Origin: Pleurocapsa sp. FMAR1
GTDB taxonomy: Bacteria; Cyanobacteriota; Cyanobacteriia; Cyanobacteriales; Xenococcaceae
Assembly: GCF_963665995.1 (NCBI RefSeq)
Contig: NZ_OY762512.1
Span: 3,968,001 to 4,032,000, forward strand
Length of the DNA: 64,000 nt
Reading direction: 5' to 3'
The notes below the pieces were generated by a model. That model was not told the origin of the DNA. It saw nothing but the letters and a program-made list of their open reading frames with translations, and did not search any database. Below, in pieces: positions 35,870 through 44,046 of this stretch (position 1 is its first letter; every line of letters begins with the position of its first letter). Position numbers and translations under genes: made by a program.

Positions 35870-36789
35870 GATTATTTTTTCACTTTGGCGATTAAAGACA
35901 ATTCCCTAAATTAGAGCGATTAGGCAATTTTTGATTTAAAAAATGCTTTAATTCTTATCAGCAACAAGTACCTTATTATTTACAATTAGTCTTCATCAAA
36001 AAATTCAAGTGCATTTAGATTAGTTACCAGGAAAATCAAGACTCAAAAGGGCAAACAATATTTATTTAATGCTATTTGTAAATGCAGATTAATAGCAGAT
36101 ACTGACTGACAATAGCATTTTTATAATAATAGGTATAGATTTGGCTTTTTATGAACAATCAAAAGAAAACTTAACTTAATCAATAGCTAAAATGTGTCAA
36201 AATACATTTTAGTGCATAATTTGTTTTTTAGTGTACTAATAATGTTGTATAAATGAGTAAGCTATCATTGTACTCGGCTTCTATTGTTATCTGAAGCTTG
36301 AACTAATTTTTGCTCTAGATACTTTATGGACATATGGAAATCGATCTCGATTTTGCTATTTAGATGTTAATTATTAAACAAGTCGATTATCAAACAAGAA
36401 GTTTGATTCTTGTAAATTACAGTTGTCGTCTTTGAGCAAATATTCCTGAACAATACCTAAAAACAGTAAAAATACGGATGAGTAAAATTGCTGAGATGAA
36501 TACAATGTGCGTAAGAACATCCATTCACCTAGGATTTACACTTAGAGAATTCTTGAATATGTGATGAGCAGTAACTGATAAATTTTTTTGTAAACTTTAG
36601 CAAATCAGCAAATCGTTTTCTTCTCCAAGTGTCATAAATCTTTTTAATAAGCGCCTATATTAGGCGGTTTAAAAGAAAGCGAAGTTGATGTTGAATTTAT
36701 CAGGTACTATTCAATCATCATCAATTTCACGCTTAAGAATATTTGGCGTAAACATTCTCTCAATCAGTAGTGACAAAAACAAGTTAACT
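35870..36789. other. long AT-rich gene-free stretch
   Basis: About 920 bp without a convincing gene on either strand. Visible items are an inverted repeat AAAATGT...ACATTTT near 36190, a hairpin near 36390 (CAAGAA...TTCTTG), and a compact hairpin CGCCTA-TAT-TAGGCG at 36652-36666 close to the next gene. Otherwise it is low-complexity AT-rich DNA, at the left border of an accessory region. Confidence 0.5.
36652..36666. promoter_or_regulatory. small hairpin before 36790 gene
   Basis: A 6-bp stem CGCCTA/TAGGCG with a TAT loop, 124 bp before the chosen start codon. It could be an operator half-site pair, an IS end or a terminator remnant; the sequence alone does not decide. Confidence 0.35.
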
Positions 36790-37269
36790 ATGAAAAAGAT
36801 TACCTATCAAGCTACCCTCAAAGAACTTGCACTTCTAGTTCCCACAGAAAGCTATACCGATCCCGAATTAGCTCAAAGTCTTTTGCAATCAGGTGTTACT
36901 ACTCCTATTATTTTTACTGCTGATGGTGCTACAAGCCGATTTGGGATGAAGAAGCTAACTGTAAAAGATGGTATGAAAAGATTAAATTTGGCTGCTTCCA
37001 ACTCAGAAATTGGTAAGCTAACTGCTCCTGTAATTTTAATTGAAAACTCAGTTACCGAGCTAATTTCGACCGTTGAAGTAAATACTGCCAAACAGTCAGA
37101 TATACCCTTAGATCAAAATACCTACAGTTGGAAAAACGAAAAGAGAAATATATCTGAACATTGCACAGCCAAAGAATTAGGCAAGAAGTACGGTATTAGA
37201 CTGCAATACCTTAATACTGTGATTCAGGGCAAAGTAAAATGTACCAGAGGTTGGAGTTTGGCGCAATAG
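36790..37269 (+). CDS. protein of unknown function with C-terminal NUMOD/HTH-like segment
   Basis: 159 residues from the ATG at 36790; the frame extends upstream to a TTG at 36685. The first half has beta/alpha character (TPIIFTADGATSRFGMKKLTVKDGMKRLNL). The end, TAKELGKKYGIRLQYLNTVIQGK, resembles the small helix-turn-helix units found beside homing endonucleases (NUMOD type). The IS1182-type fragment overlaps its 3' end, so the true C-terminus may have been lost. Function unknown. Confidence 0.5.
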   Translation: MKKITYQATLKELALLVPTESYTDPELAQSLLQSGVTTPIIFTADGATSRFGMKKLTVKDGMKRLNLAASNSEIGKLTAPVILIENSVTELISTVEVNTAKQSDIPLDQNTYSWKNEKRNISEHCTAKELGKKYGIRLQYLNTVIQGKVKCTRGWSLAQ

Positions 37270-37271
37270 CT

Positions 37272-37643
37272 AAAACTTGTGAGAACAACAAAGTTCATTT
37301 GATTACTAAAAAATGGACTTTTCTCCTCGATCAATGGGGAAGCAAAGTAATCAGAGTAAAATTTCCCCGTAAGGCTTGTCGAGAGTGTCAATTTCGCCAC
37401 CTGTGTACTCGTTCAAACAAGGAAGCACGAGAACTTACTCTACGCCATAAAGAAGAACACCTTGCCATAGATAGAAGGAGAAAGCGACAAGAGACAAAAA
37501 CATGGTTAAATACTTACAATCAACGCGCTGGAGTTGAAGAGACAATTTCTCAAGCTGTTCGCGGTTTTGATATGCGTTCTGCTCGCTATATGGGTTTGGA
37601 TAAAGTTCATTTACAACACATACTTACTGCGACTGCTTGGTAG
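37272..37643 (+). pseudogene. IS1182-type transposase, C-terminal fragment
   Basis: The frame (open from 37239) encodes the end of a DDE transposase: C-x2-C-x4-HLCTRS zinc-like motif, ELTLRHKEEH, then the typical end YNQRAGVEETISQAVRGFDMRSARYMGLDKVHLQHIL. The catalytic N-terminal two thirds are missing. The stop codon arises at the junction with the integrase relic that follows, so the fragment's true end has also been lost. Confidence 0.8.
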
Positions 37644-38135
37644 GCACAAGCTACGGGATTCAACTCTGATTTTAATAGCTTACCGTCATGGGTTGAGAAT
37701 ATCTGAGTTAGTCGCTTTGCGCTGGTCACAGATTGATTTTACTAGTGGCACGATTTATATCAATCGGCTCAAGCATGATGTAAGTTCCACTCATCCTCTG
37801 CGTGGTATTGAACTCAGAGAAGGCAATTGCAGAGAGATTATCCAGACTCAAATTATCTGTTTGTTTTAGAGAGAGGTACAGTCATGGCTGCTGCTACTGC
37901 AGTCGTGAATTATTAAGCGCGCTAGAATTAGGGCAAAATTATCTTTGAGCGTTCATCCTCATATGTTAAGGCACGCCTGCGGATTTTACCTTGCGAGTAG
38001 ATAGAGGACATGACACGAGAGCTATCCAAGCATATCTTGGTCATCGCAATATTCAGCGACGAACTCTGTTCGTCCCATGCTTTCAGCATGGACAAATCAA
38101 AGATTTGTGTTCGCTATACATACAGAGTTTTCTCC
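37644..38135 (+). pseudogene. wrecked tyrosine recombinase (phage-type integrase)
   Basis: Spread over three frames are the conserved blocks of a cyanobacterial tyrosine recombinase: RHKLRDSTLILIAYRHGLR, SELVALRWSQIDFTSGTIYI, STHPLRGIELRE, the box HPHMLRHACGFYLAS (catalytic H and R), DTRAIQAYLGHRNIQ and, after a palindromic insertion, VRYT with the active-site tyrosine. Frameshifts, an in-frame TAG and the insertion prevent function. The gene lacks its 5' part, which ends at the transposase fragment. Confidence 0.85.
38058..38114. repeat. triple-palindrome element inserted in the integrase relic
   Basis: Three adjacent perfect or near-perfect hairpins: GAACTCTGTTC, CCATGCT-TTC-AGCATGG (38075-38091) and ACAAATC-AAA-GATTTGT (38092-38108). 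It separates GHRNIQ from VRYT in the recombinase reading, two segments normally joined by two residues. It looks like a small mobile palindromic unit. Confidence 0.7.
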
Positions 38136-38288
38136 AAAGCGGTTTCAGGAGTTTTGGATGAATTGAAAGGAAGGTCGAAGTTTACATTACTTTACATCAT
38201 GTTTTGTTTTGCACGTATGTCGGCTCGTACGCCGTGCAGAACAGCTTTTGCATCTATAAGCCGAGCGCTGACCATCTGGTCGAAGAGT

Positions 38289-39311
38289 TTACTTAAAGTC
38301 TTCGTAGATAGTCGCTCCCGCACTGCGGAGTTCATCCAGGAACCATTTGGTATCCGAGAGTAGTTCGGGTAGGTAAAGCCCAGGGCGGGCAGAAGAACGG
38401 TCGTTGAGTCCCAACACCGACGCGAGAGAAAGAACGACGCAGAGACCCGTGAGTGAGGCTGTGCCATACTTGAACTCCAGCATTGATCGCGAACGCTTCG
38501 TTCGACCATCGGCCTCGCCCTCGATTTCGACGACGATCTCGGTCGCCGCTTCACCGCCTCGGCGGCGGCTGGACGATTCACCATTCATCAGGTCGAAGCG
38601 TACATCTGATGCCCCAGTGGCGGCATGGAGACTCGCGGTATCGAACGTGGAAAATGCGGTGGCATCAAGGAATCGACCGTCAACTGATTCGAACTTGCCC
38701 TTGTCGTCGTCGCCGGACAGCCATACGCGCCGCCCACCCTCGAATACCAGAGCGGCGGGAGCAGCCCCGTGCACCCGCTCCATGTCTTCGAGTGCTGCTG
38801 GACCGACTGGATCATTTTCGTCGACGATTGCGCCGAGCCTGATAGATTGGACAATCTCGAAGCCTTTGGCGCTGTTGAGTGCCAAAAACGTGGCCGCACC
38901 TGCCATCCAGTGACTGGCAAGCACGATGGGTGCTGCGGTCGCATGATGCGCGAACATCGCCAACTCGGGGCCGATTTCAGTGAGGGCAGCGTTGATGTTC
39001 AGGTAAGGGATGCCCAAGTCCTGCGCGTAGCTTAGTCCTTTGAGTCCAGCTTCAGGAGCTAACATGACCACAGCAGCTACGGCGACGTCTTCACCGAGAC
39101 CCAATCGAGGCTTATCAAGATCTATGGCAACGGCCTCGGCAGCGCCCACCTCCTGAGCGACTTCGCCTGCGGCTTGCAGGTTCCGTCCTCCAATGAGCAC
39201 TGGAACGCTGGGGTGCATCTCACGGAACCACTTGACGGCAGCGCGCCCCACGAAGCCCGATCCTCCGGCGAAAAGTACCTGTCCTAAAGCCACCTTATTT
39301 TCAATTATCAT
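38289..39311 (-). CDS. saccharopine dehydrogenase-like NAD(P) oxidoreductase, GC-rich
   Basis: 340 residues. The N-terminal Rossmann motif VLFAGGSGFVGRAAVKWF and the layout VLIGGRNLQAAGEVAQEVG with AIDLDKP are those of the saccharopine dehydrogenase N-terminal family. The gene is far richer in GC than the rest of the window, lacks HIP1 sites and uses GC-ending codons, so it is a recent acquisition, probably from a high-GC bacterium. An AraC-type regulator gene lies directly upstream on the same strand. Substrate unknown. Confidence 0.82.
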   Translation of the reverse strand: MIIENKVALGQVLFAGGSGFVGRAAVKWFREMHPSVPVLIGGRNLQAAGEVAQEVGAAEAVAIDLDKPRLGLGEDVAVAAVVMLAPEAGLKGLSYAQDLGIPYLNINAALTEIGPELAMFAHHATAAPIVLASHWMAGAATFLALNSAKGFEIVQSIRLGAIVDENDPVGPAALEDMERVHGAAPAALVFEGGRRVWLSGDDDKGKFESVDGRFLDATAFSTFDTASLHAATGASDVRFDLMNGESSSRRRGGEAATEIVVEIEGEADGRTKRSRSMLEFKYGTASLTGLCVVLSLASVLGLNDRSSARPGLYLPELLSDTKWFLDELRSAGATIYEDFK

Positions 39312-39410
39312 GATTTTTACCTCTTGTTATGAAACCAGTTGTATTTAATTGAGTGTAATGACTTCCAACACTCAATTTCTTTCAGATTCTTACGATGATT
39401 TGTCAGATTC

Positions 39411-40340
39411 TTATGGTGAAGAGCGAACTTGCTTTGGTGTTACTCCTGTGAATCGCTTGAACTGTTGAGTCAGATGACTTTGACTGGAGAAGCCTACTTG
39501 TAAGGCAATGTCTGCGATCGCCAAATCCGTTTTTGACAACATCAATTTTGCCCGTTCCACTCGCTGTCCAATTACATATTGGTGAGGAGAAATACCTGTG
39601 GTGCGTTTGAATAAGCTGGCAAAGTAAGTAGGGCTGATATTGATGAGTGAGGCAATTTGAGAGAGTGATAAATCTTGATCGAGGTGAGTGTGAATATAGT
39701 CAATTGCTTGCTGTAACTGAATACGAGTTAAGCTTCTGTTCTTTGATGTAACAATCTGTACAATCTCAGCCTCAGCATAGTGTCGCAGCAAATGAATGAC
39801 TAACGTTTGAGTTAAAGATTCGACATATAATCGTCCCATTATGCCACCCGATCGCAACTCAGCTAAAAGCAACATGGCGATATGTTGAAGCTGCAAGTCA
39901 TGCTTACGAAAATGATTCGCGAGGTCGATCCGCTCTGTATCTATTTCAGATGCTTTAGCAACTTGTTCAATCAACTTCGGCTGTAAGTGAATATGTAGTT
40001 CTGTCTGGAATAACTGACTTCCCAGACAGCGCCAGTAGGTTGGTTTTTTAGCAGGAACCAAAAGGCTGTCTCCCTTTTGAAAAAGGGACTCATGCAAGCG
40101 ATTGTCAGACTTCTGGCTCAAATGACTGGGATGTCCTAGAGGTAAGATCAGCCAATGATCTGACAGGGCAGGAATTTCTTTTTCTTCTGTTTTGCCTGGA
40201 ATTGAATAATATTGATATTGCTCGACCAAGATTCCATTCCAGCCTATCTGCTGACTTGATAACACTGGAGTTATACTCAACAGTTGGCTGAGTTGGCTTG
40301 GTTTAAGAAGGTTCCCCGTGACAGATTTGATTTTCAGCAT
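39411..40340 (-). CDS. AraC-family transcriptional regulator
   Basis: 309 residues. The C-terminal 100 residues form the double helix-turn-helix: LSLSQIASLINISPTYFASLFKRTTGISPHQYV and IADIALQVGFSSQSHLTQQFKRFTGVTPKQVR. The N-terminal part is a cupin-like effector domain (HWLILPLGHPSHL). Base composition matches the cyanobacterial background, unlike the GC-rich gene 99 bp downstream, so the two may have different histories. It may control that gene; effector unknown. Confidence 0.92.
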   Translation of the reverse strand: MLKIKSVTGNLLKPSQLSQLLSITPVLSSQQIGWNGILVEQYQYYSIPGKTEEKEIPALSDHWLILPLGHPSHLSQKSDNRLHESLFQKGDSLLVPAKKPTYWRCLGSQLFQTELHIHLQPKLIEQVAKASEIDTERIDLANHFRKHDLQLQHIAMLLLAELRSGGIMGRLYVESLTQTLVIHLLRHYAEAEIVQIVTSKNRSLTRIQLQQAIDYIHTHLDQDLSLSQIASLINISPTYFASLFKRTTGISPHQYVIGQRVERAKLMLSKTDLAIADIALQVGFSSQSHLTQQFKRFTGVTPKQVRSSP

Positions 40341-40788
40341 TTGGCTTATCTATTTGACCTGATGTCACTTTTAAATTGGTTGTGTTGCAAAAAATGTACT
40401 CAGTATCAATTGTAGATAGCTGACGAAAACCCTGCTCTTTCGGATAGGTAGTTCCTAGTCCTAAAAGTAAGGCGACCGCTATGCTTAGGGCTAGTGCAAA
40501 GACTTCTCCCAGGGAATGCGACAAAAGAGGGGTAATTTCCGTATCTTGAGAATAGATTTAAGAGTAATTGCCTGATTTTCCTGAAGCACAACCTAAAAGC
40601 AAGCAGATGAAAGGCAAATAAGCAATTACCTACTATTCAACTACCAAAAATAAGGAGTACTAAAGCGACTCTCAAGGGATAAGGGATGAAAATTGAGGGC
40701 AAGGAATAAAATTTCTTTTTATTTCTTGCCCTTGTTTCACCTACATAAGCTAATCTGGTTGTATCACTTAACTTGTGATGGCTAAAAT
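40341..40788. other. gene-free stretch between divergent genes
   Basis: About 450 bp between the AraC gene and the fusion gene. A minus-strand frame (40303-40524) with one hydrophobic segment exists but overlaps the AraC start and has no recognised similarity; I do not call it. Both promoters must lie here. Confidence 0.45.
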
Positions 40789-43314
40789 ATGAATTCTGAC
40801 TTAGTTTCTTTTTTACAGCAGAAAACTTGTCTGGGTAATTTATCATTAGAAGTTCTAAAGGCGATCGCATCTTTACTAGATGAGCGAACAATTGCCACAG
40901 ATGAGATCGTTGTTACTGAAAATACCCAGCCTGATGGCTTGTATATTATTCATACAGGAAAAGTATTAAGCGATAGTCAATCAGAGTCCCATCCCAGCAG
41001 CTTATTATCAGGGACGGTACTAAATTTATATGCTCTGTTATTAAATCAGCCGACGCAATATACGATCAAGACCGTTAGTGAAACTAAAGTCTGGTTTCTT
41101 GAGGGGACAGAGTTTCAAAAATTAGTCGAGCAATACCCCGCAATTGCTCAGACTTTTTCCCAGCAGTTAGCTACAGAGGTTAGGGAATTATCAGACAAGC
41201 TACAGTTTGAACAAGAGCGTCAGATAACTTTAAGACCCTATCTAGTTAGTAAAGCTAAACGGGGAATAATTGGTAAAAGCCGTTATGCAACTAGATTGCG
41301 ATCGCAAATTAAAGAGGCTGCTCAAACCAGAGACTCGGTACTAATTTTTGGTGAACCAGGATTAGAAAAGGATAATACAGCAGCTTTAATTCATTTTGGT
41401 TCAGCCGCTCGCCGACAACCAATTATTAAAGTTGATTGTGCCAAATTACAAACTAGTGGTGCAGAGTTGTTTGGTCGTAGCGGTGGGAAACCTGGACTAA
41501 TTGCCAGCTTAGATAGAGGAACTTTGGTTTTAAATAATATACATTTATTACCCACTGAATTAATAGATGCGATCGCCGCTTTAATTAAAGATAATCAGTA
41601 TACCCCTGTAATGCGTCCTGGGGGAAATGTCCCGCAAGTACAATCTTCTCAAGCCAGAATAATTCTTATTTCTGAACAAACTGTACAGGCGATCGACTCT
41701 GTAGTCGCCAATTTGATTAAAGTTCCCCCCCTAAGAGTGCGAAAAGCTGATTTAGATGAACAAATCAATTATTATCTAAATTTGATTGGACGCAACAAAT
41801 GTCTGCGAAAAACCAAGATAACCCCCGAAGCAATCAGAAACCTTCAGGCTTATGATTTTCCCAACAATCTCAGGGAACTAGAAAGTCTCATCGAGCGAGC
41901 TTTAACTCAGCTACAGGGTTGTGATGACATTACCGAAGAAGTTGTTTGGCACTCCCAAAGTAAAAAGAAACAGTATCGCCTAAATCTCCTCAATAAATAT
42001 CCCAAACTACGTTACTTCCTGCGTAGCGACTGGTATCCTGACAAAATCAATTATGGCTTTACCGCCAGCTTTTTTGCCTTTATTGTTTTAGTCCTTTTTC
42101 TTGCCCCTCAAAACCGTCAGCATAACTTTGCTTTAAACTTATTTTGGGCTTGGTGGTGGCCTCTAATTTTAGTTACTTTTCCCTTGATTGGCAGGTTATG
42201 GTGCGCCGTCTGTCCTTTTATGATTTATGGCGAAATCACCCAAAAGCTATCGCTAATTCTATTTCCGCGACAGCTTAAAAGATGGCCGAGAAATACTGCG
42301 GAGAAATGGGGTGGCTGGTTTTTGTTTGGTTTGTTTGCCCTAATTTTGCTATGGGAAGAATTATGGGATTTGGAAAACACCGCCTATCTTTCCGCTTGCT
42401 TGCTGCTACTCATTACCGCAGGAGCAATGATCTTTTCTGCCATTTTTGAACGTCGTTTTTGGTGTCGCTATCTTTGTCCCATCGGCGGGATGAATGGCTT
42501 GTTTGCCAAACTTTCCATGACGGAATTGCGAGCGCAACAGGGTACTTGCTCGGCAGAATGCACTACCTATCAATGCTACAAAGGAGGCCCAGCCAAAGGA
42601 GAGGGACAAGAAACCAATGGCTGTCCTTTGTATTCCCATCCTGCACAGCTAACGGACAATAAAGACTGCGTATTGTGTATGACTTGTTTAAAAGCCTGTC
42701 CCCATCGCTCGGTCGAAGTTAACCTGCGTCCCCCTGGAATTGAACTATGGACAACCCACACTCCTCACAGTTATGAAGTAGCTTTGCTGTTTCTGTTGTT
42801 AAACGTAATTTTTTTACACCGTTTACCAGAAATATCAGCTCGATTGAGTTTAAATCTGCACCTTGAACAATTTAGCAACCATGCTTTAGTATCCGTTATC
42901 GCTTTGAGTTTACCGCTGGCTGTACCTCTGCTGGCGCAAATCGCAACCGAACTTGTGGGTAAATTAAATAATAAATATAAACCCCGCAAGTTTGTTGAAC
43001 TGGCTTATGGCTATTTACCTTTGGTCTTAGCAGGGAACTTGGCTCACTATCTTCGCTTGGGTTTAGCAGAAGGGGGAAAAATATTACCCGTAACTATGGC
43101 AACCTTCGGCTTAGATGGTGCAGGTCTACCTATCTTAGTTGCTCACCCCGCAGTAATTGCTTTTTTACAGGGATGCTGTTTAATATTTGGCGTGCTGTTT
43201 TCTATTTTGCTAACTCAAAAAATTGCTCGTCAGCAACTTAAGTATCTCTTACCCCAGCATTTAGCCTCCGTAGTTTTGGCTGTAGCTATGTGGCAGGTAA
43301 TTATTGGGTTTTAA
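40789..43314 (+). CDS. fusion of cNMP-binding, degenerate sigma54-activator AAA and membrane polyferredoxin domains
   Basis: 841 residues. Residues 1-140: cyclic-nucleotide-binding (Crp-like) fold. Residues 158-380: AAA domain of sigma54 activators, ending FPNNLRELESLIERAL, but Walker A is GEPGLEKD (188-195), Walker B is LVLNNI instead of LDEI (246-251) and the GAFTGA loop is missing. Residues 420-560 and 660-841: membrane helices around NapH/NosR-like iron-sulfur segments with C-x2-C (472/475), C-x3-C (559/563), three cysteines (587-596) and CVLCMTCLKACP (627-638). Electron transfer across or along the membrane is likely; ATP hydrolysis is not. Confidence 0.87.
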   Translation: MNSDLVSFLQQKTCLGNLSLEVLKAIASLLDERTIATDEIVVTENTQPDGLYIIHTGKVLSDSQSESHPSSLLSGTVLNLYALLLNQPTQYTIKTVSETKVWFLEGTEFQKLVEQYPAIAQTFSQQLATEVRELSDKLQFEQERQITLRPYLVSKAKRGIIGKSRYATRLRSQIKEAAQTRDSVLIFGEPGLEKDNTAALIHFGSAARRQPIIKVDCAKLQTSGAELFGRSGGKPGLIASLDRGTLVLNNIHLLPTELIDAIAALIKDNQYTPVMRPGGNVPQVQSSQARIILISEQTVQAIDSVVANLIKVPPLRVRKADLDEQINYYLNLIGRNKCLRKTKITPEAIRNLQAYDFPNNLRELESLIERALTQLQGCDDITEEVVWHSQSKKKQYRLNLLNKYPKLRYFLRSDWYPDKINYGFTASFFAFIVLVLFLAPQNRQHNFALNLFWAWWWPLILVTFPLIGRLWCAVCPFMIYGEITQKLSLILFPRQLKRWPRNTAEKWGGWFLFGLFALILLWEELWDLENTAYLSACLLLLITAGAMIFSAIFERRFWCRYLCPIGGMNGLFAKLSMTELRAQQGTCSAECTTYQCYKGGPAKGEGQETNGCPLYSHPAQLTDNKDCVLCMTCLKACPHRSVEVNLRPPGIELWTTHTPHSYEVALLFLLLNVIFLHRLPEISARLSLNLHLEQFSNHALVSVIALSLPLAVPLLAQIATELVGKLNNKYKPRKFVELAYGYLPLVLAGNLAHYLRLGLAEGGKILPVTMATFGLDGAGLPILVAHPAVIAFLQGCCLIFGVLFSILLTQKIARQQLKYLLPQHLASVVLAVAMWQVIIGF

Positions 43315-43557
43315 TTTCTTCTAAAATGCAGATTAGGTCAGAATTTTCCATGATGCCTAGATTCCTAACACATTGTACGTACTTGCCGATGGATGTTTAC
43401 AGCATCTTGATCGGCGTTTAACTATTTTACACTGATGATCGCCAAAATTAGATCGGTTGGGTTTTTGGATCGGTTATCTAATGCCCTAATAATCATCAAT
43501 ACCTGGACTTTTTAGATAATTTTTTTTGTACATTTGATATGCGACCGCTAAGAATAT

Positions 43558-44046
43558 TCAAAGCTTGTTCTCTGTTTCGATGTTTGACTCTGAAGACTCG
43601 TAGTCAATATACATTTCAGGATTGCCCGTCTCAAATCTATTATCAACTAAGGTAATCAGACTAGTATCAGAACGCCATTCATAAAAAATCAATCTAATTT
43701 CCTTTAGATTAGTATTTATTTTTGGTTGTCCATATTTAGCTACTAAAGCATCGTAAAAAGAATCCCTTTCGGAATAATCTTTCAAGTGTAGTTGAATTTT
43801 ATTGAGCGAGTCATTGGCAGGATCGAATCCGTAGCACGCAATAAATTTTAATTTACCTGCTTGCCAATCTGACTCGTAATAAGAGTGTGCGCATTTTGTA
43901 AGCGTTGAATCTTTTCTCATAGCAATTGGACTTGATTTCCATAAATCGTCTCTGCTCATTCCCCATTCAGTAAATTGCCAGTTAGCATAAGCAGGAGCAA
44001 CCATGGATGCAGTTATAGCACAAGATAATAGTAGTTTTTTCAACAT
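43558..44046 (-). CDS. secreted protein of unknown function
   Basis: 162 residues, signal peptide with AYA cleavage site (about residue 21). The mature part begins NWQFTEWGMSRDDLWKSS, a phrase seen in small periplasmic proteins that start with a W-x-WGMS motif. Two cysteines (about 52 and 70) may pair. Single gene, convergent to the fusion gene. Function unknown. Confidence 0.6.
   Translation of the reverse strand: MLKKLLLSCAITASMVAPAYANWQFTEWGMSRDDLWKSSPIAMRKDSTLTKCAHSYYESDWQAGKLKFIACYGFDPANDSLNKIQLHLKDYSERDSFYDALVAKYGQPKINTNLKEIRLIFYEWRSDTSLITLVDNRFETGNPEMYIDYESSESNIETENKL

Follow-up and report, generated by a model that had tools for sequence, protein, structure and literature searches.

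A CRP-type domain, a degenerate sigma54-activator AAA+ domain and a membrane polyferredoxin joined in one cyanobacterial gene

What is the AAA+ domain of a sigma54-dependent activator doing in a membrane iron–sulfur protein, in bacteria that lack sigma54? The question is raised by one gene in a 64,000-nucleotide stretch of the genome of Pleurocapsa sp. FMAR1 (contig NZ_OY762512.1, positions 3,968,001 to 4,032,000), referred to here as the window. The source genome, a contig of 5.43 Mb, carries one complete copy of the gene. An initial annotation of the window described a Crp-like domain, an AAA domain of sigma54-activator origin and a NapH/NosR-like iron–sulfur part within one 841-residue frame, and proposed that cyclic nucleotides control electron flow through the protein. 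The explanation that we favour, with about as much confidence as doubt, is that the gene encodes a membrane electron-transfer protein with cytoplasmic iron–sulfur clusters, in which an AAA head unable to hydrolyse ATP would act as the gate and respond to a signal other than cyclic AMP (cAMP).

A three-module fusion and its three classes

The gene begins with ATG and is read as one 841-codon frame, with an opposite strand full of stops (Table 1). Pfam and NCBIfam place the modules in the annotated order. Specifically, Pfam lists cNMP_binding at residues 33–116 (E 9.3e-11; 42 bits against a cut-off of 27.5), Sigma54_activat at 160–299 (7.2e-14; 52.2 bits, over cut-off), AAA_lid_14 at 316–377 (2.4e-10; 40.5 bits, over cut-off) and Fer4_5 in two stretches (9.7e-9). 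The window gene is by far the top Sigma54_activat match of its own genome, at 56.4 bits; six weaker matches, at 31.5 bits or less, are probably other AAA+ proteins, since the model finds matches in all 14 control genomes, archaea included.

Is the fusion genuine? A chimera or assembly error is ruled out by the identical frame layout in many assemblies: a matching frame of at least 600 bits is present in 110 of the 111 loci first fetched, a set that includes the window itself and repeats of one assembly. A search of genome contigs confirmed 415 relatives, and all 80 that were kept have cyanobacterial titles. Across a sample of the phylum, a match of any class at 1e-40 was found in 104 of 386 genomes and 61 of 142 genera. 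The other 282 genomes had no match at that threshold, so the gene is not universal. The fusion is genuine, and it is widespread yet patchy across cyanobacteria.

The relatives fall into three classes. Class A includes the window gene, and its members are 51–86% identical to the window protein (split pieces excluded). Class B has the same three modules at ~40% identity over the whole protein; examples are Aulosira laxa BAZ78296.1 and Pseudanabaena galeata WP_281009908.1. Class C, from a family of small-genome cyanobacteria, is ~44–48% identical over the shared part (41–50% for one truncated frame pair) and lacks the CRP-type domain. When the membrane parts are placed in a tree whose root is set by remote, long-branched polyferredoxins that stand alone, class A groups with class C (support 0.945) and class B lies outside. 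Support for class A itself is only 0.397 in that tree and 0.817 in one that takes in the AAA part as well.

The CRP-type domain has been lost more than once. It is missing from all 51 class C loci tested (19 in the first sample and 32 in a fresh sample of 32 loci), from class A loci L120, L178/L179 and L180/L181, and from class B loci L117, L176, L218, L227 and L228. A loss was called when tblastn gave no match to the domain core at E 0.2 or better; seven control loci match at 1e-27 or better. Most simply, the ancestor had all three modules and this domain was then lost repeatedly. The AAA and polyferredoxin parts, by contrast, are seen apart only where a copy is split, broken or at a contig end, and among remote relatives that stand alone. 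That these two stay joined while the CRP-type domain is repeatedly lost is the most telling observation, and it makes the pseudo-AAA domain together with the polyferredoxin the functional unit. A few copies are visibly damaged or diverged: L122 is decaying, split into two and missing an internal part; only the C-terminal end remains of L185; L119 is a diverged second copy with a separate 60-residue tail fragment nearby; and in L229, a class B copy, the CRP-type part and the membrane part lie in different frames.

The degenerate AAA head and the CRP-type domain

The AAA part resembles solved activators both in sequence and in fold. Its best sequence matches in the PDB (phmmer) are VpsR, NifA and NtrX, with VpsR the best, and a structure-based check by fold search likewise gave an activator, FlrC (TMt 0.73). 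The AAA+ fold and the lid are shared with sigma54-dependent activators such as PspF, NtrC1, FlrC and NtrX. What distinguishes the window protein from them? First, its Walker B motif, LVLNN, lacks both acidic residues, as originally noted. The catalytic Glu is absent from all 217 readable rows in the three classes (127 A, 14 B and 20 C, with a further 25 B and 31 C from fresh samples). The motif ends in Asn-Asn in 125 of the 127 class A rows and varies freely in class C (DN, DQ, DK, SG and others), while class B retains the Asp in 11 of 14 first-sample and 15 of 25 fresh rows. Second, six family members were aligned to the control L121, a genuine-looking activator with GESGTGKE, GSFTGA, FLDE and RQDLYYR, and all six have gaps at the GAFTGA loop, correctly described as gone, and at the arginine-finger segment; in P0001, for example, an 11-residue gap lies opposite EGTFRQDLYYR. 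The two class B members aligned have no GAFTGA. Third, no DNA-binding helix-turn-helix is listed by Pfam up to E 1 anywhere in the 841 residues. Fourth, sigma54 (PF04552) is over the cut-off in none of 60 genomes (the source genome and 59 relatives), with one sub-threshold match in G043 and none in the source genome; the same model detects sigma54 in 4 of 14 control genomes. Fifth, unlike the activators, the window protein is fused to a membrane iron–sulfur module. L121 itself (G041:C28) is a curiosity, as it comes from a cyanobacterial assembly without a sigma54 match and is possibly on a contaminant contig.

Judged from these alignments, the residues for ATP hydrolysis have been lost family-wide. 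No homologue was found with intact Walker A and B motifs and a GAFTGA loop: class B has a GKT P-loop and often the Walker B Asp, with no catalytic Glu. VpsR, an atypical activator that is a soluble DNA-binding regulator, offers a partial parallel, as its Walker B, LLLND, is also deviant and the stretch that aligns shows no GAFTGA. However, the iron–sulfur and membrane part belongs to the window protein only. The proposal that the AAA module has been repurposed holds up, because the module is activator-derived, lacks what an activator needs and has been kept with the membrane iron–sulfur part.

The Walker A motif tells a different story. Its sequence, GEPGLEKD, was read correctly, but the description of it as weakened goes too far, as the altered loop is conserved and the control L121 likewise has an acidic residue after the P-loop Lys. 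The form seen most often, in 96 of 126 class A and 18 of 20 class C rows, is GEPGLEKDN. Lys-Asp is found in every readable class A and class C row (126/126, 20/20 and, in the fresh class C sample, 31/31). Class B instead has GK-Thr in 14/14 and 24/24 fresh rows, with G, A or S as the first residue of the loop. A Gly precedes the Lys in 14 of 126 class A rows, 2 of 20 class C rows and all class B rows, and the Lys itself is present in all readable rows. Since Lys-Asp is kept although the class C Walker B drifts, the P-loop is probably still under selection. This bears on a simpler explanation, namely that the AAA and CRP-type domains are a mere scaffold that oligomerises the membrane protein and binds no ligand. 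Loss of Walker B in all classes and its drift in class C, deletion of the arginine-finger segment and low model confidence at the P-loop would all suit a scaffold, but a scaffold predicts neither the Lys-Asp of classes A and C nor the GK-Thr of class B. We consider it unlikely.

Could the head respond to cyclic nucleotides, as initially proposed? The N-terminal domain resembles CRP- and protein kinase A (PKA)-type cyclic nucleotide domains in sequence: it matches cNMP_binding, its best PDB matches are PKA regulatory subunits, and the source genome has one adenylate/guanylate cyclase-type match. Nevertheless, no DNA-binding part was found with it, and the phosphate-cassette Glu and Arg are replaced by Leu80 and Thr89 (PKA alignment, read by eye). 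Among 121 readable class A rows, the Glu site is never Glu and is Leu in 116, and the Arg site is never Arg (T 53, A 37, V 20, S 8, I 2, P 1). In class B, the Glu site is Tyr, His or Cys in 12/12 first-sample and 21/21 fresh rows, and an Arg occupies the Arg site in 1 of 22 fresh rows, within a poorly aligned stretch. Without these residues, classical cAMP binding is unlikely. Given also that the domain is missing from several lineages, control of electron flow by cyclic nucleotides is hard to credit. The domain may instead be an accessory, dispensable sensor without the residues that normally bind cAMP.

The membrane iron–sulfur part

The initial annotation counted “at least twelve” cysteines; 12 are conserved in all three classes (472, 475, 559, 563, 587, 591, 596, 612, 627, 630, 633 and 637), and no column has more than one exception within a class. 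Nine membrane helices can be read from the predicted models. With loop borders partly set by hand, the mean number of Lys plus Arg residues is 4.1, 4.1, 11.9, 3.4 and 2.8 in the cytoplasmic stretches and 1.3, 0.1, 1.2 and 0.0 in those outside. The iron–sulfur loop is also rich in acidic residues (9.7, against 11.9 Lys plus Arg). These charges fit a topology in which the N terminus would be inside and all 12 invariant cysteines would face the cytoplasm. A nine-helix layout with a cytoplasmic ferredoxin loop is thus predicted with support from sequence, loop charge and a model of moderate confidence, in which the iron–sulfur loop is poorly modelled and cofactors are absent.

The module shares its membrane core, two Cys-Pro motifs and ferredoxin loop with NapH/MauN- and NosR-type polyferredoxins. 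It differs from them in being far under the NapH cut-off, in its C-terminal extension and in carrying the AAA/CRP-type head. No nap or nos genes were noticed by eye among the recurrent neighbours, and no model-based search for them was made. A headless relative also exists: a 452-residue protein from a Deinococcus plasmid aligns to 92% of the membrane query at 30% identity.

Two further explanations depend on what this part is for. One reverses the direction of signalling, with the polyferredoxin as the sensor and the head as the output of a membrane-tethered redox regulator that follows the logic of NosR, the state of the iron–sulfur clusters being relayed by way of the AAA/CRP-type head to a cytoplasmic partner. 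Both head domains do derive from transcription regulators, and the polyferredoxin also gets a weak match (19.6 bits) from the NCBIfam NosR model, whose name is that of a transcriptional regulator. An output head is nonetheless difficult to reconcile with the absence of a detected helix-turn-helix and of sigma54, the loss of GAFTGA and a CRP-type domain that is dispensable. Moreover, the iron–sulfur module is the best conserved part of the protein (mean column identity in class A is 0.88, whereas the AAA alpha/beta domain reaches 0.73 and the CRP-type domain 0.59). A regulator of this kind therefore seems doubtful. The other explanation is iron or copper handling, in which both FtrD, the polyferredoxin of FtrABCD, and CcoG have roles. 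A distant Azospirillum relative is clustered with genes for an FTR1-family protein, an iron transporter and a cupredoxin. However, this relative is only ~30% identical over 41% of the query, and by eye no such genes are prominent among the recurrent neighbours of classes A to C, making metal handling highly improbable.

How might a gated electron-transfer protein work? It would be an integral-membrane iron–sulfur protein of nine helices, with two Cys-Pro motifs at the membrane face and, towards the cytoplasm, a ferredoxin loop for two clusters. By analogy with NapH, electrons would probably pass between the quinone pool and a cytoplasmic partner. The AAA+ head, lacking the residues for ATP hydrolysis and sigma54 contact, would most likely serve in assembly and gating, with a ligand or a fixed conformation held by its altered P-loop. 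Above it, the CRP-type domain would be the droppable sensor.

Genomic neighbourhood and the role of the family

The clearest neighbour is the cysteine-synthase gene cysK, next to class B genes. In the first sample, cysK lies closely downstream in 9 of 16 class B loci (L112–L115, L171, L173, L177, L190 and L191), and the L190 and L191 pairs are on plasmid records. Other first-sample neighbours, some of them below the NCBIfam cut-off, encode SQR, NifH, HdrA/HdrB-like proteins, a cytochrome bd subunit, BchN and PsbA. Since the panel counts from this sample (8/16) were circular, the queries having come from those loci or from class C, a fresh sample was drawn. It covers 26 genomes outside the first sample (12 were dropped) and two further ones; some genera occur in both samples, which makes the Fisher p values rough. 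Of the 28 fresh loci, 16 (L205, L207–L217, L222 and L230–L232) have cysK 4–488 nt downstream on the same strand, compared with none of 20 random windows from seven carrier genomes; a seventeenth locus, L226, has a fragmentary cysK match 2 kb away. Likewise, Hdr, SQR, CydA or PDO genes are present in 8 of the 28 loci and none of the 20 windows. Separately, HdrA/HdrB-like genes (heterodisulfide-reductase type) were seen upstream of the class B genes at L174, L175, L205, L219, L224 and L225.

The tie of class B to cysK, and in part to sulfide and low-oxygen genes, suggests that the family acts in the electron supply to, or the protection of, sulfur and redox metabolism. It also permits a more specific but tentative proposal, in which the family would be membrane oxidoreductases whose captured activator AAA domain is a non-hydrolysing ligand switch for electron flow. 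In class B, the GKT P-loop would bind an ordinary nucleotide within a sulfide/cysteine circuit with CysK; in classes A and C, the P-loop would have been re-tooled for another anionic ligand. We think this possible but less likely than not to be correct. The window gene differs from its class B paralogue on both counts, having neither the GK-Thr P-loop nor the operon-like pairing with cysK.

Class C has associations of its own. In L157 and L158, genes for acsF, heme oxygenase and hemN precede the class C gene on its own strand, and acsF is separated from the oxygenase by other genes; in L242 and L260, both from the fresh sample, the three genes are downstream, again on that strand. The full set of AcsF, heme oxygenase and HemN is present in 2 of the 20 class C loci of the first sample and in 2 of the 32 fresh ones, and the counts for AcsF alone are likewise 2/20 and 2/32. 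These genes resemble the low-oxygen tetrapyrrole cluster; a review (PMC4500134) gives chlAII-ho2-hemN as the low-oxygen cluster under ChlR control. The tie of class C to low-oxygen tetrapyrrole genes is suggestive only, because just 2 of the 20 control windows are from a class C genome. As a separate observation, a short-chain-dehydrogenase-like gene overlaps the gene start in a short class C subgroup (L162, L163, L165, L167 and L168), and a Fur-family-like gene follows the class C gene in L163, L165 and L168.

Several results weigh against the reading of a gated electron-transfer protein with a sulfur or redox role. First, class A has no neighbour common across lineages. Fixed-position neighbours are confined to particular lineages (counts such as 8, 7 and 7 among the 124 loci of all classes), and in class A the low-oxygen/sulfide panel is found in 2 of 96 loci and cysK in 4 of 96, none directly downstream. 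Since class A lacks shared neighbours, the sulfur link may not apply to it; for class A, such a role would be carried over solely from the class B paralogue. Second, part of the first class B picture did not recur: NifH/ChlL, BchN and TauE are absent from all 28 fresh loci, and PsbA is at the control level (1/28 against 1/20). Third, related carrier genomes are not independent. Fourth, the NCBIfam NapH/MauN model covers residues 466–644 at about 50 bits (49.6–50.2), compared with a cut-off of 213.05, and a fold search of the membrane half against the PDB gave no usable match (best E 0.73). Fifth, the AlphaFold2 model is moderate overall (pLDDT 77.5, pTM 0.57) and weak at residues 191–210 and in the iron–sulfur loop.

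A search of 60 upstream regions for two familiar regulatory patterns found GTAN8TAC in 2 and a CRP-type palindrome in none. Elsewhere in the window, a 340-residue frame on the minus strand (38289–39311) lies in a peak of GC content (0.60 at 38500–38999; 0.28–0.50 elsewhere in 36000–43999), near broken transposase-like frames at 36685–37643; by eye, this looks like acquired DNA.

Table 1. Modules and motifs of the fusion gene, with positions in the window
Feature	Position	Strand	Basis or remark
Whole gene, three-module fusion, 841 aa	40789..43314	+	One frame; kept as a single frame in relatives
CRP/cNMP-type domain, residues 33–116; pocket Glu/Arg positions (80, 89) lost	40885..41136	+	Pfam, alignment
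Long connecting helix, residues 118–151; at least partly kept in class A copies without the CRP-type domain	41140..41241	+	
AAA+ alpha/beta domain, sigma54-activator type, residues 160–299; without GAFTGA loop and arginine-finger segment	41266..41685	+	
Altered P-loop GEPGLEKDN, residues 188–196; Lys-Asp in every readable class A and C row	41350..41376	+	
Walker B Asn-Asn, residues 249–250, replacing Asp-Glu	41533..41538	+	
AAA lid, residues 316–377	41734..41919	+	Pfam
Membrane-face Cys motif 1, CAVCP, residues 472–476	42202..42216	+	
Membrane-face Cys motif 2, CRYLCP, residues 559–564	42463..42480	+	
Ferredoxin-like loop, 8 invariant Cys (587, 591, 596, 612, 627, 630, 633, 637); probably two 4Fe-4S clusters	42547..42702	+	
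C-terminal extension read as five transmembrane helices (TM5–9), residues 661–840; past the NapH-model stretch	42769..43308	+	

What does the fusion mean for the biology of the family? Its components are known; the combination is that of a NapH-like polyferredoxin with a captured regulatory head. A search of open-licence full texts found nothing on the fusion, on its pattern of degeneration or on the pairing of class B with cysK, and the available parts of PMC4500134, PMC5061849 and PMC5295598 do not mention the protein. Existing database names are generic, such as “cyclic nucleotide-binding domain-containing protein” or, for BAZ78296.1, “nitrogen assimilation regulatory protein”, and these annotations look misleading. 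Many of the sampled cyanobacteria, themselves without sigma54, nevertheless keep the AAA domain of a sigma54 activator, fused to an electron carrier in the membrane. The pairing of class B with cysteine synthase provides a concrete physiological entry point to the function of the family. If the ligand-switch proposal is true, a metabolite would directly gate a quinone/iron–sulfur electron branch without cAMP. More generally, if the head gates electron transfer, this would be a new way to couple a metabolic signal to the electron-transport chain, and a transcription motor would have been turned into a pseudo-enzyme inside a redox protein.

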